Below, piece by piece: positions 18,525 through 32,627 of a stretch of DNA of 50,028 nt (the first letter of the stretch is position 1; each line of letters begins with the position of its first letter). Made by a program: the position numbers and the translations under genes. The notes under the pieces are model-generated. The model searched no databases, was not told the DNA's origin, and saw nothing but the letters and a program-made list of their open reading frames with translations. The stretch comes from a virus. The stretch lies in the IMG/VR virus record IMGVR_UViG_3300042934_000156, positions 1-50,028 of that record. One strand, given 5' to 3'.

Positions 18525-18527
18525 TTT

Positions 18528-18617: not shown

Positions 18618-18622
18618 CCCTG

Positions 18623-18810: not shown

Positions 18811-18812
18811 TT

Positions 18813-18929: not shown

Positions 18930-19198
18930 GCTGACACCTCATCTTCCATGAGTAACTTCACATCGATTTCATTGCGCAATTGTCGAAGTGATCTCATTTT
19001 CAGTTCGTGCGCTTCTTCTTCTTTTTCTATCTCATGTCTTATTGCATCTTTCATCATGGTTGCTAATCTTATGACATTCATTTTGTTTGGATTGTTTGCA
19101 ATAAGGCTTATATACTGCCGTGTAAAGTTATTAACTTCTGCCAAGTCTGCACCACGAATTCCGGTTATCTCTTTGAATTTCTTGTATAGTGTCCTCAT
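18926..19198 (-). CDS. HTH-like early protein, 90 aa
   Basis: The N-terminal part (GADLAEVNNFTRQYISLIAN) looks like a lambda-repressor-type helix-turn-helix; the C-terminal half is a Glu/Lys/Leu coiled coil. It follows the helicase-loader cluster. It could be a small regulator; the domain call is by eye. Confidence 0.55.
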   Translation of the reverse strand: MRTLYKKFKEITGIRGADLAEVNNFTRQYISLIANNPNKMNVIRLATMMKDAIRHEIEKEEEAHELKMRSLRQLRNEIDVKLLMEDEVSA

Positions 19199-19200
19199 GC

Positions 19201-19365
19201 TTATCTATCCTCCATTAGTCGATTGGCTAGGTCGTAAACGCTTCGGTATGACTCATCTTCTTTAATCATTTCACCGGAAACATAAATGATCATAAACAGG
19301 CAGTGACGGCACATCATGTCGATAAAGTCATTGTGGTTGCACGTACACATCACTCTGACTGTCAT
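19201..19365 (-). CDS. Small Cys/His protein, 54 aa
   Basis: ATG 19365 overlaps the stop of the helicase-loader gene (ATGA), with AAGGAG directly upstream. MCTCNHNDFIDMMCRHC offers Cys and His ligands for one zinc. Not recognised. Confidence 0.5.
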   Translation of the reverse strand: MTVRVMCTCNHNDFIDMMCRHCLFMIIYVSGEMIKEDESYRSVYDLANRLMEDR

Positions 19366-20210
19366 GCTCCTTCGTCCTCTCTGAGCCTGTAGTTCATTTC
19401 CCTGCCGCCTTTCAGGATGATGCGGAAGTCCTTGCACATCTCGTTTATGCGGCTCCCAATGGCTTCGTCAATGTCGCACATTTGGTCTATGTCCCGTTCG
19501 CTCGATATCAGGACAGGTAGCTTTTCCATGTACCGATAGTTGATCACCGCAAAGGCTTGTTCGATCTGGAATGGAGTCGGTTCCTTTCTGCCTTTCCACA
19601 TGTCGTCGATGAAAAGTAAGTCAACCTTCTGCATTCGGTTTATCCGTTCTTCCGTTAGGGATAAGTCGTCTTTAATCTCGTTGAATCCCTCGACCCATGG
19701 GAAGTACAGCACCTTGATGTTCAGACTCATTAGGTCATTAGCGACCGCAGCGAGGAGATGAGTCTTTCCACTTCCGACATTTCCGAGCATACAAATGCTG
19801 TTTGAACGTGTTTCTCTTATCTTGTCGAACCCGTTGGCGTATATCCGCGCCATCTGGTATGCCTGTCGGATGCTTGCAGGTCGATTCTCTAGGCTGAATG
19901 CGTCGAAATTCTTCTTTTGGAACTCTAACGTGATCTTGCTTGTCTTAAATGTCCGCTCGATGCTTCTTTCCTCTTTGCATTCGCAGAACTTCCAAGCGTC
20001 TCGCATGATCTCCAATGTTTCGCCGTTGCGAACGATGATATCCGGGACTTTTACGATATAACCTTCTTCGTCCTTGCATTTAGGACACTTGTGAGTCGTC
20101 TTTGAGGAGGTGAATGTATTTGCTTGGGAGAACTCCTGACTTGCCGCCCGGAGTTTGTTTATCATCTCCAGCGCTTTCTCCTTGTCGAAGGGATTCTTTA
20201 GTTCCCCCAT
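19362..20210 (-). CDS. DnaC/DnaI-like helicase loader ATPase
   Basis: The AAA+ protein has an N-terminal zinc motif (CPKC ... CEC, about residues 42-78), a Walker A GNVGSGKTH (about 143-151), a Walker B VDLLFIDDMW and a sensor-like LISSERD. It would load the host replicative helicase at the phage origin. I place the start at ATG 20210 (MGELKNPF), 8 nt after GGCAGG. It overlaps the DnaD-type initiator gene by 131 nt in another frame, which is unusually long. Confidence 0.88.
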   Translation of the reverse strand: MGELKNPFDKEKALEMINKLRAASQEFSQANTFTSSKTTHKCPKCKDEEGYIVKVPDIIVRNGETLEIMRDAWKFCECKEERSIERTFKTSKITLEFQKKNFDAFSLENRPASIRQAYQMARIYANGFDKIRETRSNSICMLGNVGSGKTHLLAAVANDLMSLNIKVLYFPWVEGFNEIKDDLSLTEERINRMQKVDLLFIDDMWKGRKEPTPFQIEQAFAVINYRYMEKLPVLISSERDIDQMCDIDEAIGSRINEMCKDFRIILKGGREMNYRLREDEGA

Positions 20211-20913
20211 TTTGTTCACCTGCCTTTTCTTGTTTCCAAGGTTCGTCTATTCCGCTTGTTCTATAGCGATTCAAAATGCTTTTAACGTATGGAAGATTCC
20301 GCTTTCCGTAATAAGATGCTTCCTTCATTGCTTCTCGCACCCAAGGTTCTCCGAAGTCGTCAATCATGTCTCCGATCTTCTGACCCAATATTTCCGTCAG
20401 CATTCCGAATCCCTCAGATTCGAAAAGTTTGAACGGGTTAGGCGCAGGAGCAGTAGTATCACTTGAAACAGAAACAGAAGAAGAAACAGAAGAAGAAAGA
20501 GAAAAAGAAACGGGGTTTTGCGGTGATTCTCGGCGTTCTTCGGCGTTCTTCGGCGTTTTTGGGTAGTTGGAACCACTATCATCACCGCGTTTCGCTTTGT
20601 TAATGTACGATTGATGCTTAAACCAACTATCTTCAGGAATGGATACAACGCCTTTACCATCAACCTCATATCTAATCCATAGACCTACGGCAGCTACTTG
20701 ATTAATCGCTTCGTCAACATCCTTACTCGACACATCCAATGCTGGACACACAAGTAATTTGAATTGCCTTGCGTCACCTGTCATTCGACCCCAATCATCC
20801 ATGTGTGGTATTGACCATGTGTAAAGGAGCAAAGGGAGAATTCCGTGCTCCGATAGTTCAGCGAGTTTAATGTCAGTACTAATATCAGTACTGATGTAAC
20901 GTTTACGACTCAT
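20080..20913 (-). CDS. DnaD-domain replication initiator
   Basis: The 277-residue protein has a winged-helix-like N-terminus (about 1-110, with LPLLLYTWSIPHMDDWG and GLWIRYEVDGKG), a Ser-rich linker and a C-terminal DnaD-like module (FGEPWVREAMKEASYYGKRN, LPYVKSILNRYRTSG). This is the initiator organisation seen in Firmicute phages beside a DnaC-type loader. The origin may lie within or near this gene. ATG 20913 (MSRKRYIST) has AGGGTG 6 nt upstream. Confidence 0.8.
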   Translation of the reverse strand: MSRKRYISTDISTDIKLAELSEHGILPLLLYTWSIPHMDDWGRMTGDARQFKLLVCPALDVSSKDVDEAINQVAAVGLWIRYEVDGKGVVSIPEDSWFKHQSYINKAKRGDDSGSNYPKTPKNAEERRESPQNPVSFSLSSSVSSSVSVSSDTTAPAPNPFKLFESEGFGMLTEILGQKIGDMIDDFGEPWVREAMKEASYYGKRNLPYVKSILNRYRTSGIDEPWKQEKAGEQNGGTKESLRQGESAGDDKQTPGGKSGVLPSKYIHLLKDDSQVS

Positions 20914-21706
20914 CTGAATCACCCTTACCTTCGTGATCATTAATGAATCTTTCCATTTCGAACTGAAAATCAGTCCAATTTTTAACGCTTTTAGAGAATG
21001 ACGTTAAACTATCTTTTGATGCGCCAAGCAAGTACGCTTTTTCGTATAAAGAGATTGCAATGTGAGGATTTACATAATGCAATCTGTTTTTGAGTATTCC
21101 CCGTAGATAATACAAATCTTTTAAGTATGGTTTTTTTTCGGCAGCCTGGTTGAAAGATAGAATTCGTTCTACTTTCTTCCAAGCTTCTTCAACTGATGAT
21201 TGAATCGGCTTATCATCTTTGAATTTTAGATACTGACTGGCCGACGTTTCTATTGCATCCAAAACACTGTTTAGTCCGTGTTTTTTTAATAACTTTCGCA
21301 TTCCCTTCTTACCGTTCTCGTTTAGAGAATAAGTATCGTTCAAAACGTCTGACCACTTTTTCAATGCGAAATTTAGCTTGTCTTCTTCGATCGACATTAA
21401 TCCTTCGCGCCATTGCATCATCATTTCTAGCTGTAATCTCTTTTCGTTTAACTCCTGCAACTGCTTCTTTTGTTTCTCCATCATCGTATTGTCATCCAGC
21501 AAGGTAGCTTTCTTACCTGAATTACAGTCGAAGCACGAGGTTAACAGGTTGGTCATGCCGTTGTTTCCTCCGGCAGCTACGGGCTTAATGTGATCGACGT
21601 TGAGAATTACGTCAGGCGCTGACTTACCGCAATACTGACACTTGAATGAATCTCGCTTGAACACTTCAAAACGAACTTTCTTAGATATTGGTTTTCTCTC
21701 GGACAT
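20903..21706 (-). CDS. HNH endonuclease domain protein, 267 aa
   Basis: An N-terminal HNH module (FKRDSFKCQYCGKSAPDVIL, VDHIKPVAAGG, LTSCFDCNSGK, about residues 14-65) is fused to a long helical C-terminal region of about 200 residues. The nuclease fold is clear, but the large helical tail and position before the initiator gene suggest a replication or recombination partner rather than a simple homing enzyme. It overlaps the initiator gene by 11 nt. Confidence 0.75.
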   Translation of the reverse strand: MSERKPISKKVRFEVFKRDSFKCQYCGKSAPDVILNVDHIKPVAAGGNNGMTNLLTSCFDCNSGKKATLLDDNTMMEKQKKQLQELNEKRLQLEMMMQWREGLMSIEEDKLNFALKKWSDVLNDTYSLNENGKKGMRKLLKKHGLNSVLDAIETSASQYLKFKDDKPIQSSVEEAWKKVERILSFNQAAEKKPYLKDLYYLRGILKNRLHYVNPHIAISLYEKAYLLGASKDSLTSFSKSVKNWTDFQFEMERFINDHEGKGDSDES

Positions 21707-21709
21707 TCC

Positions 21710-21898
21710 TCACACCGCCTTGCGGCTTTTAATGTCGTACCATCTGTTCTGGCAGGAATACATCGTGCGGCTTAACTTAACGGATGCTTCTCGGAACAGC
21801 TCAGTCGTCTTTTTCCTATCCTTCAATCCTTCGTTCATGATCTTGTCGAGGGTCTTTTCTTCCTCGGAAGTCCATGCGTGGTAGAAATACTTTGTCAT
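21710..21898 (-). CDS. Small Myb/HTH-like protein, 62 aa
   Basis: The product contains AWTSEEEKTLDKIMNEGL and later SCQNRWYDIKSRKAV, a spacing of tryptophans and helices like a single SANT/Myb-type repeat, so DNA binding is likely. ATG 21898 has GGAGG 8 nt upstream. It is divergent from the ribbon-helix-helix gene at 22022, and the repeat operators lie between them. Confidence 0.6.
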   Translation of the reverse strand: MTKYFYHAWTSEEEKTLDKIMNEGLKDRKKTTELFREASVKLSRTMYSCQNRWYDIKSRKAV

Positions 21899-21940
21899 GA
21901 CCTCAACCTCCAATGTTTATATTCATCACTCTATCATACT

Positions 21941-22002
21941 TCGTGGTATATTGTAATACTTTGTGGTAAATAAGTATAAGAATTATTCTTTCGTGGTATA
22001 CT
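21941..22002 (+). promoter_or_regulatory. Triple operator and extended -10 promoter
   Basis: Three near-identical 10-mers (TCGTGGTATA at 21941, TTGTGGTAAA at 21961, TCGTGGTATA at 21991) are spaced 20 and 30 bp, whole helical turns. The last contains TGGTATACT, an extended -10 on the plus strand (TATACT 21997-22002). Direct repeats of this sort are typical of ribbon-helix-helix operators, fitting autoregulation by the gene at 22022. Confidence 0.65.
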
Positions 22003-22021
22003 TCGCTTGAGGTGAGCCGAT

Positions 22022-22168
22022 TTGGAGAAGGTAGAGAAGGTTAAAACGTCAGTCAGTATTGATAAAGACGTACTGGAATTCATTCAAAAACTTGCAGATA
22101 ATGAGAGAACCAACGTATCGCATATAATCAACCGGGAATTTTTAGTGAAGATGAGAGAGGGCAAATGA
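22022..22168 (+). CDS. Ribbon-helix-helix regulator, 48 aa
   Basis: A plus-strand TTG start follows GAGGTG by 6 nt. The product has a strand (VKTSVSID) and two helices (VLEFIQKLADN, NVSHIINREFLVKM), the Arc/CopG plan. It is a one-gene transcription unit running against the early operon and ended by its own terminator. It probably represses itself and the divergent minus-strand gene through the triple repeat upstream. Confidence 0.7.
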   Translation: MEKVEKVKTSVSIDKDVLEFIQKLADNERTNVSHIINREFLVKMREGK

Positions 22169-22182
22169 ACCCTCTCTTTTTT
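22154..22182 (+). terminator. Terminator of the RHH gene
   Basis: AGAGAGGG and CCCTCTCT form an 8-bp perfect stem followed by a T-run; the TGA of the RHH gene lies in the loop. Confidence 0.85.
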
Positions 22183-22190
22183 ATGTCCGA

Positions 22191-22313
22191 CTAGTTTTTA
22201 ATCATTGAAACGATCAAGGCGATGAGCGCAGCATCCAAGAGTAGAAATGCTATCCATAGTTTCTTTCTTGGCCTATAGTATTGAATTTCTCCGGTCTCGT
22301 TTATCTCTTTCAT
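22191..22313 (-). CDS. Membrane peptide, 40 aa
   Basis: The ATG overlaps the previous stop (GGATGA), with GAGGTG 6 nt before it. The product is MKEINETGEIQYYRPRKK followed by one transmembrane helix (LWIAFLLLDAALIALIVSMI). It forms a pair with the 35-residue membrane peptide upstream. Function unknown. Confidence 0.55.
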   Translation of the reverse strand: MKEINETGEIQYYRPRKKLWIAFLLLDAALIALIVSMIKN

Positions 22314-22417
22314 CCCACCCACCTCACTATCTCTACTAATCCCTCATAAGCTAGATATAAGATTAAGTAGATGGATAGAGAGAAGGCGAATCCGTATACT
22401 GCGTTATTTTGGAGCAT
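22310..22417 (-). CDS. Membrane peptide, 35 aa
   Basis: ATG 22417 has GGAGAGG 6 nt upstream. MLQNNAVY is followed by one hydrophobic helix (GFAFSLSIYLILYLAY) and an amphipathic end. The frame is open further upstream inside the preceding gene but has no ribosome site there. Confidence 0.5.
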   Translation of the reverse strand: MLQNNAVYGFAFSLSIYLILYLAYEGLVEIVRWVG

Positions 22418-23081
22418 CGGTACCCTCTCCTTTATCCGTCCTATTGGTGTATTGCTGGAGGATGGTACGGGCTTGTTCTCCTTTGTCCTTGTCCATCCAT
22501 ACATTGCGATCCGGACCCCATGGTTCCCAATTCGATTTGTTTCCGTACCATTCCAGCACCTTATCCTTTGCGGATAGTTCAGTACGGAGGTATGCGGACG
22601 TTTTTATCTCGCTACCTAGTTGATCCTCTGTGCGCTGATACATGCCCTGGTATCGTTCCAGTTCTTCCCTTGTCTGTTGGAGTTGGATCGCATGTTCCTT
22701 GTCTCGCTGTATGACAAGACGCATTGTTTCTGCTTTATCTCTTTTCAACCGTTTGTTCTCTTCCAGTAGGGCGCGGAGCCATTTGGGAGCGTTGGCGATA
22801 AGCCATGCGTCTGCGTGTTGATGCCCGTTGTCCTGGTCGCTATCGATTTCAGCTATCCATTTTGCTGTATGAATTCCGTCTTGGAACTTGTAGCCTATGG
22901 CAATTTGAACGGGATCGAGATCTACTACCTCCCACTCTCCCGGCGTAACTGCTTCCAACGCCTTCTCTATCTCGGCAATATCTATCAACTGCTCTTTAGG
23001 TTGCGTCATGACGTTTATCAACTCCCTCATACCTGGTAACGATACTCTTGCTATTGCTCCTTTATGTTGGGTATCACTCAT
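22404..23081 (-). CDS. Ead/Ea22-like early protein
   Basis: The 225-residue protein has the pattern IEKALEAVTPGEWEVV ... DAWLIANAPKWLRALLEENK (about residues 39-108) typical of Ead/Ea22-like phage proteins, followed by a long coiled coil. GGGAGG lies 9 nt before ATG. These proteins are accessory early products without known activity. Confidence 0.65.
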   Translation of the reverse strand: MSDTQHKGAIARVSLPGMRELINVMTQPKEQLIDIAEIEKALEAVTPGEWEVVDLDPVQIAIGYKFQDGIHTAKWIAEIDSDQDNGHQHADAWLIANAPKWLRALLEENKRLKRDKAETMRLVIQRDKEHAIQLQQTREELERYQGMYQRTEDQLGSEIKTSAYLRTELSAKDKVLEWYGNKSNWEPWGPDRNVWMDKDKGEQARTILQQYTNRTDKGEGTDAPK

Positions 23082-23359
23082 CTGATGGGACCTCCCGCAG
23101 ACTTAAGCCGACTATAACCCTCGCTTGTCTGCTCCTTGAAATTGACTACTTCTTCCTTGAAGCAGCGTTTGATGAAATCCACGTGTCGATCGTTGCGCAC
23201 GTTCGGATGACGATTAAGCAGATATTCCGGTCCGACGTGGTTAATCGATGACGGAGGGCTGCTCCACCAAGAATCGGTATAGATTCCTCTTCCGTCCGTG
23301 AACCGGGTCATTACGCCGCCATCGCGATGTTTCCACATTTCGAATTTAAGTCTCCGCAT
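23078..23359 (-). CDS. Small early protein, 93 aa
   Basis: ATG 23359 follows GGAGGGG and begins MRRLKFEMWKHRDGGVMTRF. It has aromatic and Arg-rich segments but no motif that I recognise. The stop overlaps the next ATG. Confidence 0.5.
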   Translation of the reverse strand: MRRLKFEMWKHRDGGVMTRFTDGRGIYTDSWWSSPPSSINHVGPEYLLNRHPNVRNDRHVDFIKRCFKEEVVNFKEQTSEGYSRLKSAGGPIR

Positions 23360-23885
23360 TGTTATCCCCTCCATCTGTAATGCCTGGAATGGTGATGCCG
23401 AGGGCTATCAACGATCCTTTTAGCGCTCGCATACCGTAGAAGCCATCTTGCCGCTTCATTTCGTCCCACAACTCCCGTACCTTCTGTATCCCTGTATCCT
23501 CTGTATGGAAGGAGAGGGCTTGCTTGACGATGTGTTTAACCAGAGTCTTGTACGTGTCGCTATCGTTTAGTTCAAGACCTTCAATTCGTTCCAGAACATC
23601 CCGCTGTCTTGCTGCTTCTCCCTGATTGGAGAGTCCGAGAACAACATACCCTGACTTCTGGTTATAGGTTGTCATGTAAGAAATAGTTCGCTCTTCCTCG
23701 TCGCCCGTATACTTTTGCATCCCCATGTGCCATTCCTTGAGGATCAATACATCACCGACTTTGTAATCTCGATCATTTTCACGGATCTCGAACGGCTTCG
23801 CTCCCGACTTAACTGCTTGGAAGTATTCCGGCCAACATTTCAAATAATGGACTGTTGCTCCATCTATCAATCGTTTATCTGACAT
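23346..23885 (-). CDS. DUF3850 (ASCH/PUA-like) domain protein
   Basis: The N-terminal domain reads HYLKCWPEYFQAVKSGAKPF, EIRENDRDYKVGDVLILKEW and SGYVVLGLS, the DUF3850 signature, a PUA/ASCH-like fold thought to bind RNA. The C-terminal half (about 95-179) is helical and unassigned. A dispersed repeat (23912-23965) lies in the leader before its AAGGAG site. Confidence 0.8.
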   Translation of the reverse strand: MSDKRLIDGATVHYLKCWPEYFQAVKSGAKPFEIRENDRDYKVGDVLILKEWHMGMQKYTGDEEERTISYMTTYNQKSGYVVLGLSNQGEAARQRDVLERIEGLELNDSDTYKTLVKHIVKQALSFHTEDTGIQKVRELWDEMKRQDGFYGMRALKGSLIALGITIPGITDGGDNNAET

Positions 23886-23911
23886 CTTATTAGTCTCCTT
23901 AGGGGCTATTT

Positions 23912-23965
23912 ATCGGCCTACACTTTGTTAAGCGGATTCGGTCGGGACGAGGGCGCTATGCGCAA
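23912..23965 (-). repeat. Dispersed early-junction element, copy d
   Basis: Minus strand: TTTTGCGCATAGCGCCCTCG, then TCCCGACCGAATCCGC, then AACAAAGTGTAGGCCGAT. It fills most of the 84-bp gap between two genes, starting just after a TAA stop. The 3' half shares AACAAAGTGNAGGCCG with copy a. Confidence 0.75.
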
Positions 23966-23969
23966 AATC

Positions 23970-24464
23970 TTAGTTCGCTTTTTTAATGACCATTGATTCG
24001 CGCATTTCCTTGTCTTTAAGTAGGGTGAGGTAATATAAGCAACTTTCCTTTTGCCCCTCTGATAACTTTTTGCTAGGATTTCTCAGACCTACCGCAAATA
24101 CTATCGAACCGTGTGAAGGCCCCATTCCGTAACTGCAATCACATTCTTGATGGCTCCACCGATCATAGTTTTTCACTCCAAAATATTGTTGTGACAATTT
24201 CGGCGTATCCAAGGCGATGTCTTTAATTGCTTCATCAATGCATCGACCGTTATATTCCCCATACTCCAAACCGCGAATATAGACCAATGCCTCTGCTTGC
24301 CTGATCATCCCTAAGTCGATACCTTTCATTGCCATACCTTTCTTGCGACTCAATTCCGCTATCTCTTTTGTGTTTTGTTTCATGAAATCCTCATGCGCTT
24401 TAATGGCTTCTTTACGAGTTTCGTTAAGTTGAATCAATTCGTTTTCAATTTTTAGTAAATTCAT
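23970..24464 (-). CDS. Early protein with coiled coil, 164 aa
   Basis: ATG 24464 (MNLLKIENELIQLNET) follows GGGAG by 9 nt. An N-terminal coiled coil (1-50) is followed by a domain with HQECDCSYGMGPSHGSIVFA. Not recognised. A GCGC-rich sequence resembling a fragment of the dispersed element lies just upstream. Confidence 0.55.
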   Translation of the reverse strand: MNLLKIENELIQLNETRKEAIKAHEDFMKQNTKEIAELSRKKGMAMKGIDLGMIRQAEALVYIRGLEYGEYNGRCIDEAIKDIALDTPKLSQQYFGVKNYDRWSHQECDCSYGMGPSHGSIVFAVGLRNPSKKLSEGQKESCLYYLTLLKDKEMRESMVIKKAN

Positions 24465-24554
24465 TTTTAATCTCTCCCTATGCGCCCTCGCGCAATGATT
24501 TTTTAAATCGTACACCTTCACCAGTCGTATCCAGATAGATGTGACAAGCCTTAC

Positions 24555-25106
24555 TTAGTTAACATGCTTCCAAGTCGCGCCACGTTTAACGTTACAGACT
24601 GTGCTCTTGTGCAGATTTAACTCTGCGGCTATTTCAATATTTCTTTTGCCTTCTGCCACCATTAACTTGATATTTCTCACTGTGTTTTCGTTAATCTTGC
24701 TCCAACCATGACGTTCGCCTTGCAGCAACCTGTTTCTTTTTACTGCATCCAATACATTGTCGCGCTGTGTGCCTAGTTCTAAATGCTCCGGATTTATACA
24801 ATTTCTTACATCACATTTATGCCTAACAACAAGTCCATCTGGTATTTCACCAAAACATTCCTCGTATATCAGTCGGTGAGCGGCCGTTCTCCCCCCACGA
24901 CTTCCGATCATCACGTATCCAGATGAATACGGTGCGTGCGAAATGACAACAAAACAACCATTATCATCAACATTAAAATTAATTGGCCTAGTCGTAGTCT
25001 TCTTCGTGTAGTAGTTGCCGTTTCTACGAAATCTCATGTAGTGCTTCTCGCAAACGGTTTTTCTTTTATGAACCTGGCTATCGCAGTTAAATACGCTACA
25101 TTGCAC
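24555..25106 (-). CDS. HNH homing endonuclease with C-terminal HTH
   Basis: The 183-residue protein has an N-terminal Cys cluster, an HNH_3 core (HRLIYEECFGEIPDGLVVRH, CDVRNCINPEHLELGT, about residues 90-130) and a C-terminal helix-turn-helix (NIEIAAELNLHKSTVCNVKR) as in free-standing homing nucleases. I chose GTG 25106, which follows GAGGAG by 10 nt and overlaps the stop of the previous HNH gene. Confidence 0.85.
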   Translation of the reverse strand: MQCSVFNCDSQVHKRKTVCEKHYMRFRRNGNYYTKKTTTRPINFNVDDNGCFVVISHAPYSSGYVMIGSRGGRTAAHRLIYEECFGEIPDGLVVRHKCDVRNCINPEHLELGTQRDNVLDAVKRNRLLQGERHGWSKINENTVRNIKLMVAEGKRNIEIAAELNLHKSTVCNVKRGATWKHVN

Positions 25107-25434
25107 GACTAGACAACTCCTCGACTCTTTTTTTCTTGAACCTAATGCCATCCACCGTTCGATCCATCCAAATGTGACAAGTTACGCAAGAGTGGAGAAG
25201 GTCTTCTGCGGTAGTCCTATGTTTGATAGTCCCTCTAGTGGTTAAATGTGCTTGCTCAACGGCAGGGGAGCCGTGACACTTTACTCTGATCTCACAGATC
25301 CCCTGACTTCTCTCGCGGACTTGCTTGCGTACTTTCTGACTGATGCTTCCCATCTGCTTCTGTGTGGGTTTGTTAGAGCGCTTAAAAGCTGGCTTTTGCA
25401 CGGCTACGCCCGGGCTTTTGGTATAGTCGATCAT
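25096..25434 (-). CDS. HNH-type nuclease, 112 aa
   Basis: After a basic leader the product has CEIRVKCHGSPAVEQAHLTT and LLHSCVTCHIWMD, a compact Cys/His HNH (zinc-finger-nuclease) core. Its position next to the ERF annealing gene suggests a recombination role (compare lambda NinG-type proteins), but it could also be a homing enzyme. The start overlaps the ERF stop. Confidence 0.7.
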   Translation of the reverse strand: MIDYTKSPGVAVQKPAFKRSNKPTQKQMGSISQKVRKQVRERSQGICEIRVKCHGSPAVEQAHLTTRGTIKHRTTAEDLLHSCVTCHIWMDRTVDGIRFKKKRVEELSSRAM

Positions 25435-26180
25435 CAGAATGGGAGATCGTCGTCAGCGATCGTTGTGACTGGTTGTGGGGTATAGTCTTGCAAGGTATTT
25501 ATAAGCTTCTTGGCTTCTGCCATTGTGAGGTCTTTGGTGCTTGTCTTAGGTGCAATCATTTGGCGGTAATCGTCATCCGGAACCTTCTTCTGCGTCTTCA
25601 AGGAACCGATAAACTTAATCTGTCCCTCGCTTACCATGACCACGGCTCCCTGTTGGCTCTGGGAAGCGTTGTATTGACTAGATTGTGTATTTGTCTGGGA
25701 TGGTTGTTGTGTCGCCTTAGGAGGCGTTTGGGACTGTTGTGAATTGTGCTGCGGTTTATCTTGTTTAGCGTCCGGATCATCTTCATCCGTAGGAAGTCCC
25801 AAGCATTTCAAGAGGAAGTACCTTTCCGAATACGTTAAAGCAGAACCAAATGCCTTCGATATGTCGTCCTGTTGACCGTAATAAGCCCATGAGACAACCT
25901 CCCTTTCCGAAGGTTCATCCCCGTTAATCCATGTGTAGGACATTTCACCTTTGACCACAAAATCCAGAACGTCTTTACCTTTAGCTGTTTTATATGCATG
26001 CGTGTGATGCTCTCCGATCTTGGTTGAAGGGAATAAAAGTAAGTTCAATTCGTTCATCTTGTCTTTGATCTTTCCGAGTACTTGGTTACCAGTAACGTAG
26101 GTGTAACTGTAGCTGGCTCCGTCTTTCGTGAATCCTTCGGCGACCTTTCGAACCTCAACGATCTTCTGATATAGGTTCAT
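25434..26180 (-). CDS. erf: ERF-family single-strand annealing protein with SSB-like tail
   Basis: The N-terminal domain (MNLYQKIVEVRKVAEGFTKD, ASYSYTYVTGNQVLGKIKD, SWAYYGQQDDISKAFGSALT, YSERYFLLKCLGL, about residues 1-145) is a clear ERF domain, the P22 Erf family that anneals single-stranded DNA and can circularise phage genomes. A Gln/Ser/Thr-rich linker follows, then a small C-terminal domain. The last six residues are DDDLPF, identical in form to the acidic tip of Firmicute SSB that recruits repair proteins. ATG 26180 is chosen because GGAG lies just upstream. Confidence 0.9.
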   Translation of the reverse strand: MNLYQKIVEVRKVAEGFTKDGASYSYTYVTGNQVLGKIKDKMNELNLLLFPSTKIGEHHTHAYKTAKGKDVLDFVVKGEMSYTWINGDEPSEREVVSWAYYGQQDDISKAFGSALTYSERYFLLKCLGLPTDEDDPDAKQDKPQHNSQQSQTPPKATQQPSQTNTQSSQYNASQSQQGAVVMVSEGQIKFIGSLKTQKKVPDDDYRQMIAPKTSTKDLTMAEAKKLINTLQDYTPQPVTTIADDDLPF

Positions 26181-26418
26181 TTGACTCCAACTCCCTATAT
26201 GAAATTTCAACCTCTACAACTTCGAAATCCGATGAATCTAAATCGTATATTTCAGGTCTGTAATAGCTATTAAGTAAGAATTCCGGGATCTGTTCAGGTT
26301 GGTAGAATTGCCTAGCCTCGCTGATCAGGTGAGTAAGTGGAAAGTTCTTCGAATCCCATGAGAGATAGCGTCCGTTGTGGTGTTTCAGCACATGCCGGAC
26401 TTTCGATTCACTTACCAC
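26155..26418 (-). CDS. Early protein, 87 aa
   Basis: GTG 26418 opens MVSESKVRHVLKHHNGRYLS; the later VVEVEISYRELE segment is strand-like. It overlaps ERF by 26 nt and the upstream gene by 7 nt. No good ribosome site is visible, so translation is probably coupled. Not recognised. Confidence 0.5.
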   Translation of the reverse strand: MVSESKVRHVLKHHNGRYLSWDSKNFPLTHLISEARQFYQPEQIPEFLLNSYYRPEIYDLDSSDFEVVEVEISYRELESNEPISEDR

Positions 26419-26555
26419 GGCAAATCGTTTATACTGAAATTAGGTATCATATCGTTTCTTGGGGATCTGTTAGCGCAGATTCCTTTTTCATGTCCAAGTA
26501 CCTGATTGATGAGTTCCTTGTGCTCACGTAAGCTCATTCGTGGGTTATCAGGCAT
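26412..26555 (-). CDS. Small early protein, 47 aa
   Basis: The ATG overlaps the stop of the previous gene (ATGCCTGA). The product begins MPDNPRMSLREHKELINQVL and ends NFSINDLPW. Not recognised; supported by tight coupling on both sides. Confidence 0.5.
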   Translation of the reverse strand: MPDNPRMSLREHKELINQVLGHEKGICANRSPRNDMIPNFSINDLPW

Positions 26556-26946
26556 TATTGTTACTTGTTCCATCTGGTGTGCCTCCTTGGATTGCTTTAT
26601 CAGCTACTTGCCATAGTCCATGAGAAGTGCGATCGTCGTGTTTTTTACACGCTAGCGTATCTCTGACAATTACCAACGCCTCTATCAGTTGTTTATTCTG
26701 TTGTTGGAGTGCGGTTATCTCTGATAAGCACCACTCAAGATATTTAGGGGTATTTACAATCAAGTGAGCATCGTTTTCACGGTTCTCATTTTTGAAAGAT
26801 TCAGCAACACGCGCATCCGTAATCGCGATCCTTCTGTGTGTCCCACGCAACGGATGACCATCTTTCCATTCAATGAAAGTTCCATCTGTATCCCATTCGT
26901 GCTGTGTTGAAGCATTATCAAGTGCTTTGCGAATTTCCGTTAACAT
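26548..26946 (-). CDS. Early helical protein, 132 aa
   Basis: ATG 26946 (MLTEIRKALDNAS) has AAGGAG 9 nt upstream, and the previous gene stops just before that site. The middle (GHPLRGTHRRIAITDARVAE, NDAHLIVNTPKYLEWCLSEI) resembles Ead-type early proteins and is followed by a coil. Function unknown. Confidence 0.55.
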   Translation of the reverse strand: MLTEIRKALDNASTQHEWDTDGTFIEWKDGHPLRGTHRRIAITDARVAESFKNENRENDAHLIVNTPKYLEWCLSEITALQQQNKQLIEALVIVRDTLACKKHDDRTSHGLWQVADKAIQGGTPDGTSNNNA

Positions 26947-26959
26947 ATCTCTCATCTCC

Positions 26960-27199
26960 TTATTGATCTGATTGGGGTTGTGATTGTTCGGTCGGTTCGA
27001 TTTCTTGTTCAATTAATCCAAGAGAGTCCAACCTTTCCCCTTGGATGTTATGCCACATTGCTTTAACTGCATCGGCGGCCTGATCTTCGCAACTAGGGTC
27101 AACATCAACTTCCAAGTTTTCATCATCCGACCAATATGCTCGATTTACCTTAATTCCTACATCCTCGATCGCTTTAATGATTTCCCACATTTTTTGCAT
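26960..27199 (-). CDS. Early protein, 79 aa
   Basis: The product has MWEIIKAIEDVGIKVNRAYW, an acidic middle and a Gln/Ser/Pro tail. AAAGGAG lies upstream of the ATG. The tail (EIEPTEQSQPQ) resembles the peptide read from repeat copy b, so an old repeat fragment may be incorporated here. Not recognised. Confidence 0.5.
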   Translation of the reverse strand: MQKMWEIIKAIEDVGIKVNRAYWSDDENLEVDVDPSCEDQAADAVKAMWHNIQGERLDSLGLIEQEIEPTEQSQPQSDQ

Positions 27200-27226
27200 T
27201 CTTTATCTCTCCTTTGAATTAGATTT

Positions 27227-27270
27227 GCATCGTCTCGACCGAATACGCTAAGCTTGCGAGGCCGTAGAAG
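27227..27270 (+). repeat. Dispersed early-junction element, copy f (inverted)
   Basis: Plus strand: GCATCGTCTCGACCGAATAC, then AGCTTGCGAGGCCGTAG. This is the only copy in plus orientation. It lies between a 45-codon gene, whose last codons it overlaps, and the 79-residue gene. Confidence 0.65.
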
Positions 27271-27385
27271 CCCTCTCTTTTCTTACTAATAATTTGTATT
27301 TATTAACGTAGTAGACCATAGACTTCCGACTCTTCGACATTCGTCCAAATTCCCGGCATAATTCCTTATCCCATAAGCGGAGCAT
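27248..27385 (-). CDS. Small basic HTH-like protein, 45 aa
   Basis: ATG 27385, 7 nt after GGGAG and inside the end of the previous gene, encodes MLRLWDKELCREFGRMSKSR followed by SMVYYVNKYKLLVRKE. The length and helix-turn-helix-like rhythm suggest a small DNA-binding protein. Its last residues are read from the inverted dispersed repeat. Confidence 0.45.
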   Translation of the reverse strand: MLRLWDKELCREFGRMSKSRKSMVYYVNKYKLLVRKERASTASQA

Positions 27386-27623
27386 TTTTCTTCTCCCTCT
27401 CTATAATCTGTGATACTCGCTTAATCTCCTCGTTAATCGCGTCATACAGCATCCATCTGTCCCAAAGTGGGTTAGTCTCGATAAAGTCATCCAGATCCGG
27501 TACGGTTCCTTTTTCCTCTATCCAGTTGTCAGTGAATGAGCTGACGTATATCTTTACTTCTGCTACGACATCGTTAAAGTCATCTTCGTTAAATATCTTG
27601 CGGTTATTGGGATCGTATCTCAT
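27366..27623 (-). CDS. Early protein, 85 aa
   Basis: The product begins MRYDPNNRKIFNEDDFNDVV and contains TNPLWDRWMLYDAINEEIKR; it is acidic and helical. The ATG overlaps the preceding stop. Not recognised. Confidence 0.5.
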   Translation of the reverse strand: MRYDPNNRKIFNEDDFNDVVAEVKIYVSSFTDNWIEEKGTVPDLDDFIETNPLWDRWMLYDAINEEIKRVSQIIEREKKNAPLMG

Positions 27624-27847
27624 GAAGCCACCCTACCCATCAATCGAATCTGACGTTTCAAGTCCAAGTTCTCTGATTCGAGGATGATGTATTCCTGCTC
27701 GTGTTGAACGGCTTCGTCGTACTCTAGAAGGGCTTGGTCACCATGCTCGCCAATTACCTCAAGTAGTTCAGCAAAGGCGGTGTGTGGGTTATGCGGCTTC
27801 ATTTTCGTTCTTGCGATGGCTTCCATTACTTTTTGTAGGTTTTGCAT
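27620..27847 (-). CDS. Early protein, 75 aa
   Basis: The product begins MQNLQKVMEAIARTKMKPHN and continues as a Glu-rich helix. The start overlaps the stop of the gene before it and the stop overlaps the next start. Not recognised. Confidence 0.5.
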   Translation of the reverse strand: MQNLQKVMEAIARTKMKPHNPHTAFAELLEVIGEHGDQALLEYDEAVQHEQEYIILESENLDLKRQIRLMGRVAS

Positions 27848-28158
27848 TAGTCGTTCACTCCCTCAATTTTGTGACCGAGCATATTTACCGTCTCCCTTAT
27901 GACATGTGCGATTTCCGGGAATGCACTATTCTTGTAATAAAACTCCCTCACCTTTTCTTTCGGTGTCTGTTCAACCTCATATCCGATGTACAACGCCTCA
28001 ATGAGTAGGTCAGGATCCATTTTGTTGAGAACAGAACACTCAGAATAAAACGTGACATGTGGATCAAGTCGAGACCATACAAGGTTCGATTTAGAATCCA
28101 CGTTAAGTTGATATTCAATCGCTTTTGCTTGCTCCTTGGTAATCTTCACCTTTTCCAT
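27847..28158 (-). CDS. Early protein, 103 aa
   Basis: The product begins MEKVKITKEQAKAIEYQLN and contains IEALYIGYEVEQTPKEKVRE, a pattern common in small early proteins of Firmicute phages (DUF1642-like). GGGAGG, encoded within the micropeptide gene, precedes the ATG. Function unknown. Confidence 0.6.
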   Translation of the reverse strand: MEKVKITKEQAKAIEYQLNVDSKSNLVWSRLDPHVTFYSECSVLNKMDPDLLIEALYIGYEVEQTPKEKVREFYYKNSAFPEIAHVIRETVNMLGHKIEGVND

Positions 28159-28224
28159 TTATGCAGCACCTCCCGGTGGAAAGTAGAATGTTTGTTTGAT
28201 CGGACGTTTCTTAGGTTTCAACAT
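28159..28224 (-). CDS. Micropeptide, 21 aa, PPxGAA family
   Basis: ATG 28224 overlaps the stop of the preceding gene (ATGTTGA), and its TAA abuts the next ATG. The peptide starts MLKPKKRPIKQ and ends YFPPGGAA, sharing K-P-K-x-K-R-P and P-P-x-G-A-A with the peptide at 14543-14614. Function unknown. Confidence 0.45.
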   Translation of the reverse strand: MLKPKKRPIKQTFYFPPGGAA

Positions 28225-28493
28225 GCGATAACCTCCATCACTTCTAAGTATTTTTTCTCCGTGTAGTAATCTCCGTATTCGTCTACTACTGTGCATCCGA
28301 TCCACTTAGCTCCAGTACCGCGAACCATGCATACGATGTCGCAATAACGTTGACCAGTAACCGCAGACTCTATGCATTCATGCTCGCCTTTAATCAGGTA
28401 TTGTCCGCATGGGCATTGCTGTATGTCCGGATTGATGTAAGCGAACGGGAAATCGAGAGGTTTCTTTAAGATATCTTTCAGGGACTTTGCCAC
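28218..28493 (-). CDS. Cys-containing early protein, 91 aa
   Basis: GTG 28493 has GGAGG 9 nt upstream. The product has CPCGQYLIKGEHEC, YCDIVCMV and WIGCTVVDEYGDYYTE, so a metal site is likely. It overlaps the upstream gene by 104 nt in another frame. Not recognised. Confidence 0.55.
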   Translation of the reverse strand: MAKSLKDILKKPLDFPFAYINPDIQQCPCGQYLIKGEHECIESAVTGQRYCDIVCMVRGTGAKWIGCTVVDEYGDYYTEKKYLEVMEVIAC

Positions 28494-28659
28494 TTCTCCA
28501 TACCTCCAGTTCCATTAAGTCTTCTATGACATCCGGTATATCGCTGACTACTAGCTTTGTGATTTGCACAATCTGTAAGTCGCCTTCGATCTTTACTTCA
28601 CGTTCGAACGTTTTAAGGTTATGGATCCGGAATAGGTTGTGCGCGGTTTCTATCCTCAT
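28390..28659 (-). CDS. Early protein, 89 aa
   Basis: The product begins MRIETAHNLFRIHNLKTFER and contains IVQITKLVVSDIPDVIEDLM; the last third overlaps the next gene and may be only weakly constrained. The start overlaps the HTH gene stop. Not recognised. Confidence 0.5.
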   Translation of the reverse strand: MRIETAHNLFRIHNLKTFEREVKIEGDLQIVQITKLVVSDIPDVIEDLMELEVWRSGKVPERYLKETSRFPVRLHQSGHTAMPMRTIPD

Positions 28660-28862
28660 GCGCTGATACCTTCACGGTTCATGTACCAGGCGAAGAAGTT
28701 GTCTCGGTGGATGCGTATACCCTTCTGTCCGCGCCGTATAACGATTCCCGGCTGAGTCCCGGCTTCTTTAACCAACCTGTACACTACAGAGCGTGAATAC
28801 TGCGTAGCGTCCATTACGTCTTCTATCTTTAGGTAAAGTGGGAATGCTTCGAATTGGTTCAT
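28656..28862 (-). CDS. Excisionase-like HTH_17 protein, 68 aa
   Basis: KIEDVMDATQYSRSVVYRLV is a MerR/AlpA-type helix-turn-helix, followed by VIRRGQKGIRIHRDNFFAWY, the wing and C-terminal strand typical of HTH_17/excisionase-like proteins. It could act as Xis for the integrase at 31506 or as a transcription factor. GGAGG precedes the ATG. Confidence 0.75.
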   Translation of the reverse strand: MNQFEAFPLYLKIEDVMDATQYSRSVVYRLVKEAGTQPGIVIRRGQKGIRIHRDNFFAWYMNREGISA

Positions 28863-28874
28863 GGTGTGGCCTCC

Positions 28875-29219
28875 TTAATGTGATGTAGGAAAAGGAATAA
28901 CGTTTGATAAAACTTCCTCAGTGCTCCGCAACAAGAATATTTCGAACTCTCGTTCCAACCCTTTTTCGTAGATGAATTTATAAGCGCCTCGATAGGTAAC
29001 GTCCGTAATAATCAAGTCCTCCATGTTATCCTCTAATGCCGCTATTCTTTCGCTTTGCGCATCCATGGTCACCCTTGATCTCTTAGAAATTTCAAAAACT
29101 GCATTCCATGCTTCGTCTAAGTTTTCTTGCAATATTGAAGTAGAGTTGGCGCAAACCATTTCATGATGTTTTAAGATAATGTCCTGTAGTTCCTTGTCCG
29201 TTAACTTTGCGAAGTCCAT
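28875..29219 (-). CDS. Early protein, 114 aa
   Basis: The product begins MDFAKLTDKELQDIILKHHE, is helical, and ends in FLLRSTEEVLSNVIPFPTSH. The ATG overlaps the antirepressor stop (TAATG). Not recognised. Confidence 0.5.
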   Translation of the reverse strand: MDFAKLTDKELQDIILKHHEMVCANSTSILQENLDEAWNAVFEISKRSRVTMDAQSERIAALEDNMEDLIITDVTYRGAYKFIYEKGLEREFEIFLLRSTEEVLSNVIPFPTSH

Positions 29220-30019
29220 TAAGCAGCTTCCTTTCTGTCCATGAAGGGGACAATACTACGTTTTGAAAGAATTTCATGGATGAACAATCTTCCTTTTTGC
29301 GTCCATCGCGTGTTCATAGTGACATCTGGATCGCCGTTGCTTCTGGTAATATCAATCGTTTCTGACTTTGTGTATCCTTCATCTTGGTGTTTTCGATAAA
29401 GCAACCATTGTTTGTTCTGCTTATATTGAACACATTCTTCGTGAAGTATCTTATTTAGTTGAGGTCCGGACATTCCGTAGTCCTTCGCTATTTGAGTTAT
29501 TGTCACGGTTCCTTTTGATTTAAGGATTGTATCGATGTAACTTATCTTTGGTTCGTACTCCTTCACTCTTTGTTCAAGCATCAAATTTTGCGTTTGAAGT
29601 ATTTCATTCTCTTCAACTTTATCTGCCAGCCTTCTGAGTGCTTCGCCGAAAGTTTGAGGCAATTGTTGTTGAACATTAAATGATCCGGTTTTCCTTATTG
29701 ATGGAAGAATGTCGAATGCAACCGTTCTTTGGAATGCAATAGCAGCATCATTACTTGCTTTCATTGAAAGCAGGTAAAAATAGCTTTCTTGGACATAATC
29801 AGGCAGACCGTCCTTACCAGTTAGTTCGTGCCCACGGATGGGCACGCCCATCTCTTCCAAATATCCTCGAACACGCTCCCACCTAATTACCTCGTTGCCA
29901 CTTGTGGCAATGCGAGTGAATCCTAATCCGCGCGAAACGTCTTCCAAATTCAGTTGAGCTGTGCCGCTTTCATCGATGTAACCTCGGACACCATGAATTG
30001 TGATTAGATTCAATTTCAT
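29219..30019 (-). CDS. ant: Antirepressor, Bro-N plus KilAC
   Basis: The 266-residue protein has an N-terminal Bro-N-like domain (ITIHGVRGYIDESGTAQLNL, LLSMKASNDAAIAFQRTVAF, DILPSIRKTGSF, about residues 7-114), a coiled linker and a C-terminal KilAC/ANT domain (ITQIAKDYGMSGPQLNKILH, YKQNKQWLLYRKHQDEGYT, about 170-215). This is the standard phage antirepressor plan: it would inactivate a repressor and favour lytic growth. It is the second gene of the early operon. Confidence 0.9.
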   Translation of the reverse strand: MKLNLITIHGVRGYIDESGTAQLNLEDVSRGLGFTRIATSGNEVIRWERVRGYLEEMGVPIRGHELTGKDGLPDYVQESYFYLLSMKASNDAAIAFQRTVAFDILPSIRKTGSFNVQQQLPQTFGEALRRLADKVEENEILQTQNLMLEQRVKEYEPKISYIDTILKSKGTVTITQIAKDYGMSGPQLNKILHEECVQYKQNKQWLLYRKHQDEGYTKSETIDITRSNGDPDVTMNTRWTQKGRLFIHEILSKRSIVPFMDRKEAA

Positions 30020-30089
30020 TCCTCCTCCTGAGTTTTAAAGGTATTTTTTAATTTCTGTCGAATGTTTAGAAATTGTTCATCATCGAGTG

Positions 30090-30317
30090 CTATGCGCTTT
30101 TTTTGTTAGTTCTACTCGTTTCGCGTAGGGTTTCTTCAAAAAAAAGCGTCCAACTGAACCCTAGATACTCGCCGATTATCTTACTCTTTTTTCCATTAGG
30201 AGTACGAACTCCCTGCTCATAAGCCGCATAACATGTGCGAGATAATCCACACTCTTTTGCAACGTGCTCCTGAGTTAATCCCTTTAGTTTTCTAATGTTT
30301 ATCAGCCATTCTCTCAT
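30090..30317 (-). CDS. cro: Cro-like XRE-family regulator, 75 aa
   Basis: The first early gene encodes an XRE helix-turn-helix (LKGLTQEHVAKECGLSRTCY, AAYEQGVRTPNGKK). ATG 30317 (MREWLINIRK) follows GGAGG by 8 nt. It is divergent from the CI-like gene with the operators between them, the classical cro position. Its stop (S-A-stop) resembles the start of the dispersed repeat. Confidence 0.85.
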   Translation of the reverse strand: MREWLINIRKLKGLTQEHVAKECGLSRTCYAAYEQGVRTPNGKKSKIIGEYLGFSWTLFFEETLRETSRTNKKSA

Positions 30318-30337
30318 ATTTCTCACCTCCAATTACG

Positions 30338-30443
30338 CGTTTCGTGTAGTTCCATGACACAAATATACTACACGAAATGAGTCATGTCAAACATAATTTT
30401 TACTCTTATTGTGTCATCTGTTTTTTGATGCGTTTTGTGTAGT
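30338..30443. promoter_or_regulatory. Operator cluster of the primary switch
   Basis: Three related sites lie between cro and the CI-like gene: CGTTTCGTGTAGT (30338-30350), ACTACACGAAA in inverted orientation (30367-30377) and CGTTTTGTGTAGT (30431-30443). The second overlaps the early -10 and spacer; the third abuts the -10 of the repressor promoter. The layout allows mutual repression by Cro and CI. Confidence 0.7.
30362..30390 (-). promoter_or_regulatory. Early promoter
   Basis: TTGACA (30390-30385), a 17-nt spacer and TATATT (30367-30362) on the minus strand make a strong sigma-A promoter for cro and the early operon; an operator site lies over the -10. Confidence 0.85.
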
Positions 30444-30449
30444 TATAAT
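30444..30449 (+). promoter_or_regulatory. -10 of the repressor promoter
   Basis: TATAAT on the plus strand, directly preceded by an operator site. No good -35 is seen (TTTTTT at the right distance), so activation or a weak promoter is likely. It lies 31 nt before the TTG start of the repressor. Confidence 0.6.
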
Positions 30450-30479
30450 ACTTTTAGGTTGTATGTGGAGGTGGGATTA

Positions 30480-30824
30480 TTGATTAGCGAAAAGCTATTA
30501 AAACTAAGAGAAAAAATAAATTTATCTCAAGAGGAAATAGCCCAGAGATTAGGAATTGCAAGAACTACCTATGCGAGCTATGAGCAAGGGAAAAGAGAAC
30601 CAGACATTGAGATGCTTAGGAAGATATCTACATTTCACGGCATTGAGCCTGGAGACCTTATAGGCGGCACAAAAAAGGAAGGCTCACGGCCTTCCAAAGT
30701 AGATGAGGCTGTGAGAAGAATAGAGAATGAATTGGGGGTTGTGTTATCGGATGATCCCATTATTATGAAAGGTTTGGAAAACTACCTTAGAATGGCGGGG
30801 GAATTGAAGAAGAGTTCAGAGTAG
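30480..30824 (+). CDS. CI-like XRE repressor without protease domain, 114 aa
   Basis: I place the start at TTG 30480, 8 nt after GGAGG; a longer frame would begin upstream of the promoter -10. The N-terminal XRE domain (INLSQEEIAQRLGIARTTYA, SYEQGKREPD) is followed by about 50 residues without any S24 (LexA-type) peptidase motif. It therefore probably cannot self-cleave upon RecA activation, so induction must work differently; see the LexA-box gene at 30816-30929. Confidence 0.85.
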   Translation: MISEKLLKLREKINLSQEEIAQRLGIARTTYASYEQGKREPDIEMLRKISTFHGIEPGDLIGGTKKEGSRPSKVDEAVRRIENELGVVLSDDPIIMKGLENYLRMAGELKKSSE

Positions 30825-30929
30825 ATCATCAGTTAATCGAGTAATTATTTCTTTAATTTCTTGTAAGGAAAGAGGAACGGACTTCTCTTCGATGATACGC
30901 AACGATAATTTTTCTAGTTCCTCTTCCAT
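30816..30929 (-). CDS. LexA-controlled 37-aa protein, candidate SOS antirepressor
   Basis: ATG 30929 has AGGAGG 7 nt upstream and encodes MEEELEKLSLRIIEEKSVPL followed by SLQEIKEIITRLTDDLL, two amphipathic helices. The gene converges on the repressor and overlaps its last 9 nt. Its promoter (TTGCCA-17-TATTAT) abuts a perfect LexA box. I infer a small protein made on DNA damage that binds and inactivates the repressor; the sequence itself shows only the location and control. Confidence 0.6.
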   Translation of the reverse strand: MEEELEKLSLRIIEEKSVPLSLQEIKEIITRLTDDLL

Positions 30930-30959
30930 TGACCCGCCTCCTAGTTGTTGGTAAGGATC

Positions 30960-31000
30960 ATAATACAGATGTTTTGCCAAATTGGCAAGAACATATGTTC
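30960..31000 (-). promoter_or_regulatory. SOS promoter with LexA (DinR) box and second palindrome
   Basis: The minus strand has TTGCCA (30988-30983), a 17-nt spacer and TATTAT (30965-30960). GAACATATGTTC (30989-31000) directly upstream fits the Gram-positive LexA consensus GAAC-RNRY-GTTC exactly. TTGCCAA-A-TTGGCAA (30974-30988) is a second 7-1-7 palindrome covering the -35, a possible operator for another regulator. Confidence 0.8.
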
Positions 31001-31123: not shown

Positions 31124-31143
31124 AAAAAAACCGCTTTCGCGGT
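31124..31143 (-). terminator. Terminator after the minus-strand RHH gene
   Basis: On the minus strand ACCGC-GAAA-GCGGT is followed by a run of seven T. It ends transcription from the RHH gene at 31335 before the SOS promoter. Confidence 0.85.
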
Positions 31144-31173
31144 CAAAAGGTAATCCGCACTAGGATGTATGTA

Positions 31174-31335
31174 TCATGATGTGGTCTTTCCATTTTTTCT
31201 CTTGTCTATGTATTCGTCAACGGCAATGCGAATAATATCGGACATGCTTTTATTATCTTTGAATGCTATTTTACGAATGGCTTCGTGCTGCTTGTCTTTA
31301 AGGTTAACAGGCAATCGCTTCATCATCTTTGACAT
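31174..31335 (-). CDS. Ribbon-helix-helix (Arc/CopG-like) regulator, 53 aa
   Basis: The product reads MSKMMKRLPVNLKDKQHEAI, then KDNKSMSDIIRIAVDEYIDK, a strand plus two helices as in Arc/Mnt/CopG. The exact start among the first three Met codons is open; AGGTG precedes them. It sits alone between its promoter (31347-31374) and a terminator, divergent from the integrase gene. It may control integrase and itself through the GATATCAATT repeats. Confidence 0.75.
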   Translation of the reverse strand: MSKMMKRLPVNLKDKQHEAIRKIAFKDNKSMSDIIRIAVDEYIDKRKNGKTTS

Positions 31336-31346
31336 CACCTAATTTA

Positions 31347-31505: not shown

Positions 31506-32627
31506 ATGGCATCGTTCAAACAAAACGAGAAAACAAAACTCTGGTACTTTGTCATAGACATAGGCGAGGACTTAGTGACTAACCGGAGATTGCAGAAGAG
31601 GTTTTCTGTAGATGATCGGGATAATCCATTCGAGACGGAACAACAGGCTCGGCGGTATGCGATTAAAATAGAGGACGATCTAGCGCGTGGCAGGAAATTC
31701 GACTCCATCAAGCTCGGGCCGTATATGACGGAGTATTTTGAAAAGGTTGTCGTAGAAACGGTATCCGAGGTTTCCTATGACAACTACTGGAGAACGGCTT
31801 CATTACATATCATCCCCTTCCTCGGAAACATGCAGCTAGATAAAATTACGGATGAAACGATCGAGAAATTCTACGTAAGGCTTACAAAAGAAAAAAGATC
31901 CCGTGCTATCATTTCGATGGTTCAAACTGTACTAAGCAAATTCTTTAGATTTGCCGTTAAGAAACGTAAGATCGTCGATAACCCTATGAAGCTCGTCACG
32001 ACACCATCGTACAAGCCGAGGATAAAAGAAGTGTGGTCTTCGGAACAAGTCGATCAATTCCTGGAGTGTAACCGGGATAGTAGGTTCTACACCCTGTATG
32101 TCGTGGCTGAGAGCACCGGGATGCGTCGCGGGGAATTGTTATCGCTCAAATGGTCTGACATCGATCTCGATAACGGGAAGATAACGGTCAATAAGTCCAT
32201 TAAGTATTCTACGGCATCTAAGAAGCACGTTAAGGGCACCAAGACGGAGAATAGCCGTAGGACAGTATCAATACCGCAGTATACCGTGGAAGCCCTCCGG
32301 GAGCATATGAAAGGGCGCATGGAAGGTGTAGACATCGTGTTCGATAATTTCGGGGAGTATTACGCAGCCACTTACCTGTCTGACGAATTTTCGAGGGATG
32401 CAGCTAAAACGGATCTGCCTTACAACACATTGCACGGACTACGACATTCTCACGCTACCTATCTCCTATCGAACGGATTCAGCGTTGCGGATGTAGCTGC
32501 TCGATTGGGTGACACAAAAGAGACCATTATGAAGACTTATGCACATGTTTTGCCGAATACACAGAATGAAATTGTGTCAGCTCTGGATAGACGAAAAAGT
32601 GTGGATAAGCAGGAATCAAAAGCCTAA
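31506..32627 (+). CDS. int: Tyrosine-recombinase integrase
   Basis: The 373-residue protein has an AP2-like N-terminal arm-binding region (about 1-60), a SAM-like core-binding domain (about 70-165) and a catalytic domain with Arg207 (STGMRRGELLSLKW), His310 and Arg313 (HGLRHSHATYLL) and Tyr345 (MKTYAHVLP). The usual box II His of LGHS is Asp336 (LGDTKET), a variant known in Firmicute integrases. AAGGAGG precedes the ATG. It integrates the phage genome by recombination at attP, which I expect in 32628-32932 downstream. Confidence 0.95.
   Translation: MASFKQNEKTKLWYFVIDIGEDLVTNRRLQKRFSVDDRDNPFETEQQARRYAIKIEDDLARGRKFDSIKLGPYMTEYFEKVVVETVSEVSYDNYWRTASLHIIPFLGNMQLDKITDETIEKFYVRLTKEKRSRAIISMVQTVLSKFFRFAVKKRKIVDNPMKLVTTPSYKPRIKEVWSSEQVDQFLECNRDSRFYTLYVVAESTGMRRGELLSLKWSDIDLDNGKITVNKSIKYSTASKKHVKGTKTENSRRTVSIPQYTVEALREHMKGRMEGVDIVFDNFGEYYAATYLSDEFSRDAAKTDLPYNTLHGLRHSHATYLLSNGFSVADVAARLGDTKETIMKTYAHVLPNTQNEIVSALDRRKSVDKQESKA

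Follow-up and report, generated by a model that had tools for sequence, protein, structure and literature searches.

A small gene behind a LexA box faces the non-cleavable repressor of a temperate phage: a probable SOS-to-lysis relay with a layout found in related phages

To our knowledge, damage sensing is an open question for most phages of Gram-positive hosts whose repressor is not cleavable. How such a phage could be induced is the question raised by the immunity locus of a temperate, tailed phage (SU10/P22-type portal, tyrosine integrase) whose sequence, an entire IMG/VR virus record (50,028 bases, GC content 44%), is referred to as the window (Table 1). As claimed in the first-pass annotation of this DNA, the 114-residue repressor carries no S24 self-cleavage domain: HTH_3 is the only domain detected in it, Peptidase_S24 is absent from the repressor and from the whole window record, and no M78/ImmA protease was found in that record either. 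The modelled repressor consists of the HTH, a low-confidence linker (63-71) and a two-helix C-terminal domain (CTD). This type-A CTD was not found when sought in named phages and plasmids.

Table 1. Features of the immunity locus and its flanks, with window positions
Feature	Position	Strand	Remarks
Ant, KilAC antirepressor-type	29219..30019	-	PF03374 E 2e-35; phrog_130 E 2e-57
Cro-like XRE protein	30090..30317	-	first gene of the putative lytic operon
Divergent repressor/cro promoter region	30333..30479		repeated TTTCGTGTAG-like elements (seen by eye)
CI-like repressor, 114 aa	30480..30824	+	TTG start; HTH_3 only; HTH and short two-helix type-A CTD (..VVLSDDP..)
Putative intrinsic terminator of the small-ORF transcript	30671..30695	-	in the linker codons of the repressor
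37-codon small ORF, putative SOS antirepressor (family smORF-A)	30816..30929	-	ATG 30929, TGA at 30816
Ribosome binding site AGGAGG	30937..30942	-	7 nt before ATG 30929
Sigma-A-type promoter TTGCCA-17-TATTAT	30960..30988	-	-35 30988-30983, -10 30965-30960
7-1-7 palindrome TTGCCAATTTGGCAA	30974..30988		over the -35; unique in the window
LexA (DinR) box GAACATATGTTC	30989..31000	-	exact match
Intrinsic terminator upstream of the LexA promoter	31129..31144	-	would insulate the promoter from the RHH gene
Arc/CopG-type RHH protein (neighbour)	31174..31338	-
Tyrosine integrase (neighbour)	31506..32627	+

Read along the minus strand, the RHH gene is followed by a terminator, the LexA box, the promoter, AGGAGG and the 37-codon ORF, which is faced by the repressor gene on the plus strand. 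Beyond the repressor, the cro-like gene and then ant lie again on the minus strand, co-directional with the small ORF. A promoter, TTGACA-17-TATATT (30390-30362), stands inside the divergent repressor/cro region, whose repeated elements are likely operators. The elements on which the first-pass annotation had built its proposal are all in place: the box matching the LexA consensus exactly, the promoter abutting it (TTGCCA begins at the base next to the end of the box), and the AGGAGG-started gene of 37 codons whose end overlaps the repressor gene by 9 nt. The second palindrome that it had placed over the -35 exists as well; as it has no second copy in the window and none in the promoters of relatives, it is probably incidental. 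A longer reading of the small ORF, 62 aa from an ATG at 31004, was rejected, its start preceding the promoter and relatives beginning at the equivalent of 30929.

The layout is not confined to the window. A survey of loci with a related Ant revealed several heteroimmune phages in which an exact LexA box lies about 150-225 nt past the stop codon of the repressor gene and precedes a small ORF directed towards that gene. Profile scans of IMG/VR for two repressor types, A (CTD ..L.DDP..) and B (CTD LP..KRKI..), yielded 24 loci, 23 of which have an exact box in this slot and a convergent small ORF, the exception, L217, matching weakly (29% identity) and having another tail. When reduced to 21 non-redundant loci, window included, every one displays an exact GAACNNNNGTTC within 260 nt (expected: 0.08; average of ten control palindromes in the same slot: 0.1), and in every one the box is followed by a convergent ORF of 37-58 codons. 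The first-pass annotation had proposed to look in related prophages for a conserved LexA box and a 37-residue frame; the box and a convergent small ORF do recur in these loci. Across these loci, the half-sites of the box are invariant (2.0 bits) and its centre is variable (near 0), and a TATTAT/TAATAT-like -10 is located at a similar place in relatives. The terminator upstream of the box is found in the window and is not general among relatives. Over the first 112 loci as a whole, LexA boxes were not enriched over the reversed pattern; hence the enrichment is specific to the slot. The layout is also found with a third repressor type (L082, L091), whose boxes deviate from the consensus by one mismatch. 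The arrangement recurs in at least 20 other phages; the records of L200, L201, L204 and L207 bear IMG identifiers of isolate type. Neither S24 nor M78 was found in the 21 kin records or in the window (22/22 records searched).

In two of the related loci (L083, L084), the start of a divergent XRE gene encoding 70 aa lies immediately upstream of the LexA box (L083 3431-3643 and equivalents). Other relatives also show conservation of this stretch, and LexA may control both sides.

The small ORF of the window is divergent and shorter than those of its relatives (37 vs 52-58 aa). When it was searched with a family-A HMM built only from relatives, with the window excluded, the 37-mer scored 12.6 bits, whereas the next window ORF reached 1.8 bits and none of 2000 shuffles attained 12.6. 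Among 1527 small ORFs from 120 loci, scores of at least 12.6 bits were obtained only by true members and the copy of the window. By its profile score, the 37-mer is a remote member of small-ORF family A, and its alignment retains the start, the II pair and the second hydrophobic stretch. AlphaFold2 predicts a two-helix hairpin (pLDDT 89), with which a fold search gave weak matches only. The pN/pS of the small ORFs, which is near saturation, ranges from 0.71 to 0.88, mildly below 1. No relative of the 37-mer was found in named phages, Pfam, PHROGs, NCBIfam, PADLOC or the PDB.

Taken as a whole, the locus is probably an SOS-to-lysis relay in which a LexA-controlled small protein would disarm the repressor and release the lytic operon. 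In the lysogen, host LexA on its box would silence the small ORF while the non-cleavable repressor keeps the divergent cro-ant operon off. Upon DNA damage, RecA would become active, LexA would be lost and the 37-residue protein would be made. This protein would inactivate the repressor, for which binding to the short C-terminal (dimerisation) domain is the most probable route; the repressor would leave its operators, turning on the cro-ant lytic operon. The transcript of the small ORF would also run antisense into the repressor gene, and in type A this overlap may add to the effect. LexA binding, the binding of one protein to the other, induction and the role of the terminator are steps that we infer from the sequences. 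The earlier proposal that the peptide, made under SOS control, is the inducer that acts on a non-cleavable repressor agrees with all comparative tests and is supported at sequence level, on the grounds of the conserved box, the convergent ORF, the lack of S24 and M78 in all 22 records and an ORF type that tracks the CTD.

The antisense part of this scheme is associated with a terminator that appears to be embedded in the repressor gene itself. The repressor gene of the window contains, 129 nt from its 3' end, a perfect hairpin followed by a T6 tail. Such an antisense terminator is found in 12 of the 15 type-A repressor genes, window included (11 by stricter criteria). Among the 14 other type-A genes, 11 have it at the equivalent place (126-148 nt; 10 in the stricter scan), with a sequence differing from that of the window and within the KESEYxLPE codons linking HTH and CTD. 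Among the controls, an antisense terminator-like hairpin was present in 1 of 91 XRE genes, and 6 of 300 synonymously shuffled versions of the same genes also had one. In the alignment of the embedded stem, 95% of the cells are paired without compensatory changes, and shuffles do equally well, so that the terminator claim rests on position, on the contrast with controls and on the unrelated hairpin of the window. The type-A SOS transcript is thereby predicted to enter the repressor gene for about 140-150 nt and then to stop, the embedded terminator lying about 130 nt inside the gene. Since cro and ant lie in the direction of the small ORF, the embedded terminator would prevent leaky SOS transcription from reaching the lytic operon, and it would also set the length of the antisense overlap. 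Codons of a protein linker would then double as an antisense terminator.

Such a design could also be read as a switch at the RNA level, the antisense SOS transcript lowering repressor synthesis by RNA pairing or colliding polymerases and the ORF being minor or serving to stabilize the RNA. Although the convergent overlap, with a length defined in type A by the embedded terminator, is what this reading would predict, it is unlikely. Indeed, type-B small ORFs end 12-30 nt before the repressor, without overlap, and no embedded terminator was found in type B; the small ORFs are conserved as proteins outside the overlap and have good ribosome binding sites; and an antisense RNA leaves the existing repressor in place.

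A protein acting on the repressor is better matched by the way in which both partners vary. The type of small ORF tracks the type of repressor CTD in 23/23 loci, which comprise nine HTH clusters and two CTD types. For example, the HTHs of L197 and L201 are 43% identical, while their CTDs and the N-termini of their small ORFs are both 100% identical, the corresponding values for L200 and L204 being 37%, 89% and 89%, and L207, of type A, belongs to an HTH cluster shared with type-B loci. As the small ORF follows the CTD across HTH clusters, operator specificity is exchanged while CTD and small ORF stay paired, and these natural domain swaps already act as a specificity experiment. The repressor CTD is likely the target of the small protein. 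The co-segregation is what a protein-protein pair predicts, yet it may be partly due to linkage because CTD and small ORF are physically adjacent. Mimicry of the CTD by the small protein, as in SinI, was considered and rejected: the hhalign score of small-ORF A against CTD A was matched in 2-6 of 100 column shuffles and exceeded by the A-vs-B control, though the window peptide resembles the CTD of its repressor by eye.

The co-variation also bears on the idea that the small protein is SOS-controlled with another target, be it a host factor, Ant or, as a modulator of the SOS response, LexA itself. A precedent is gp7 of GIL01, a small phage protein binding LexA (PMC4551915), but a small-ORF family that changes with the repressor CTD is unexpected for a host target, and this option is quite improbable. 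That a spurious, unregulated ORF merely lies beside a random GAACNNNNGTTC is hardly credible: although about 0.8 exact boxes are expected by base counting in 50 kb and the window has just two, the other one (28944) within a coding ORF, the constancy of the box in the slot across the 21 loci and the score of the window ORF as a family member refute chance, unless the window alone is an exception.

A LexA-controlled relay to a non-cleavable repressor has counterparts elsewhere. A small gene under a LexA box, together with a repressor devoid of self-cleavage domain, seems to be shared with GfoA, GftA and GfhA of Gifsy-1/-2/-3 (Salmonella), Tum of phage 186 and AntC of N15, whose sequences are nevertheless other, the box of the window being Bacillota-type. 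The Gifsy antirepressors are LexA-controlled, inactivate non-cleavable repressors and tie prophage induction directly to SOS (PMC3121763). The absence of S24 separates the window repressor from lambda-type self-cleaving CI.

The position of the small ORF in the window locus, in the slot past the 3' end of the repressor gene and pointing towards it, is reminiscent of AimX, as arranged in L063 and L067. These are AimR-encoding (arbitrium) phages in which a small ORF occupies the slot of the window. According to PDB titles, AimX is a small antirepressor whose target is an HTH repressor carrying a short CTD, and the matches of the window repressor in a fold comparison include 9SF2 (phi106 repressor with AimX) and 9IAQ (entitled as arbitrium acting via a small antirepressor), both released on 2026-01-14. 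In phi106, SOS and arbitrium may jointly control aimX (PMC12768286). In contrast to arbitrium AimX, the small gene of the window has a LexA box directly upstream and no sequence similarity to it, neither the 37-mer nor the family profile resembling AimX chains among PDB sequences. AimR (PF22871) was found in none of the 22 records (window and 21 kin), whereas the controls L063 and L067 matched; because AimR is absent, the window is not an arbitrium member.

An exact LexA box also occurs upstream of aimR in four loci (L063 2029, L064 2052, L067 1322, L099 2061), followed by a promoter-like TTGTGATAAAATATG. The distance from box to aimR is about 390-395 nt in L063, L064 and L067, and AimR was confirmed by NF038310 for L063 and L067. 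This suggests that the aimR transcript is under SOS control in these four phages.

By fold, the repressor model also matches SinR of Bacillus subtilis in the SinR/SinI complex (1B0N, E 4e-3, TM 0.54), SinI being a small helical antirepressor. However, the 37-mer has no match to the Pfam SinI domain at E<=10, and SinI/SinR is not a phage SOS switch. Relief of a non-cleavable HTH repressor through a second factor is likewise known from ImmR/ImmA of ICEBs1 and from prophages with a LexA-box M78 gene. The factor of ImmR/ImmA is a protease, and the window is not of this kind because it has none, as is the case for the 21 kin records.

Among Bacillus-type prophages with related non-cleavable repressors, five (L002, L015, L025, L027, L028) have a LexA box, exact or with one mismatch, before an M78 (ImmA/IrrE-type) gene located between repressor and integrase. 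M78 was confirmed by Pfam for L015 and L028.

The literature search found no description of the LexA-driven cassette, which is apparently undescribed; the AimX paper, outside this search, may mention relatives. For at least 20 phages, the cassette offers a concrete and testable answer to damage sensing, with a molecule of 37-58 residues and a predicted target domain, and one genomic slot links SOS induction with arbitrium signalling. A broader reading is offered tentatively, as it may well go too far. The cassette would be widespread among temperate phages of Bacillota type, CTD and facing SOS small ORF forming an exchangeable unit under swapped DNA-binding domains. Its linker codons would serve as opposing terminator, a single transcript as both antirepressor mRNA and length-defined antisense RNA, and the slot, also taking the arbitrium-linked ORF, as an interchangeable lysogeny input port.

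Both the LexA box and the ribosome binding site of the window are of Bacillota type. As Ant is moreover similar to proteins of Paenibacillus larvae phages, a Paenibacillaceae-like host is suggested. A scan of genome contigs found no host. The 37-mer was not found in 398 genomes from the phylum to which a Ruminococcaceae MAG belongs, a negative of little weight because the host is probably in another phylum.

Elsewhere in the window, a second XRE regulator (152 aa, 36696-37154, plus strand) stands beside an anti-repressor-like gene (phrog_1726, 35529-36383, minus strand), far from the integrase. A phage-encoded trypsin-like serine protease (PF13365; 450-1079, minus strand) with a signal-peptide-like start adjoins tail genes. 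The two ends of the window (1-4077 and 46430-50028) share 85-89% identity, and both contain a tail gene of beta-helix (pectate-lyase-like) type, which reflects either a true duplication or an assembly of two strains. Another contig, IMGVR 3300042923_000170, corresponds to window 30521..149, its first 6.3 kb being 100% and its last 20.4 kb 99.9% identical. It ends inside the repressor gene (window 30521), as if co-resident strains differed in the immunity region.
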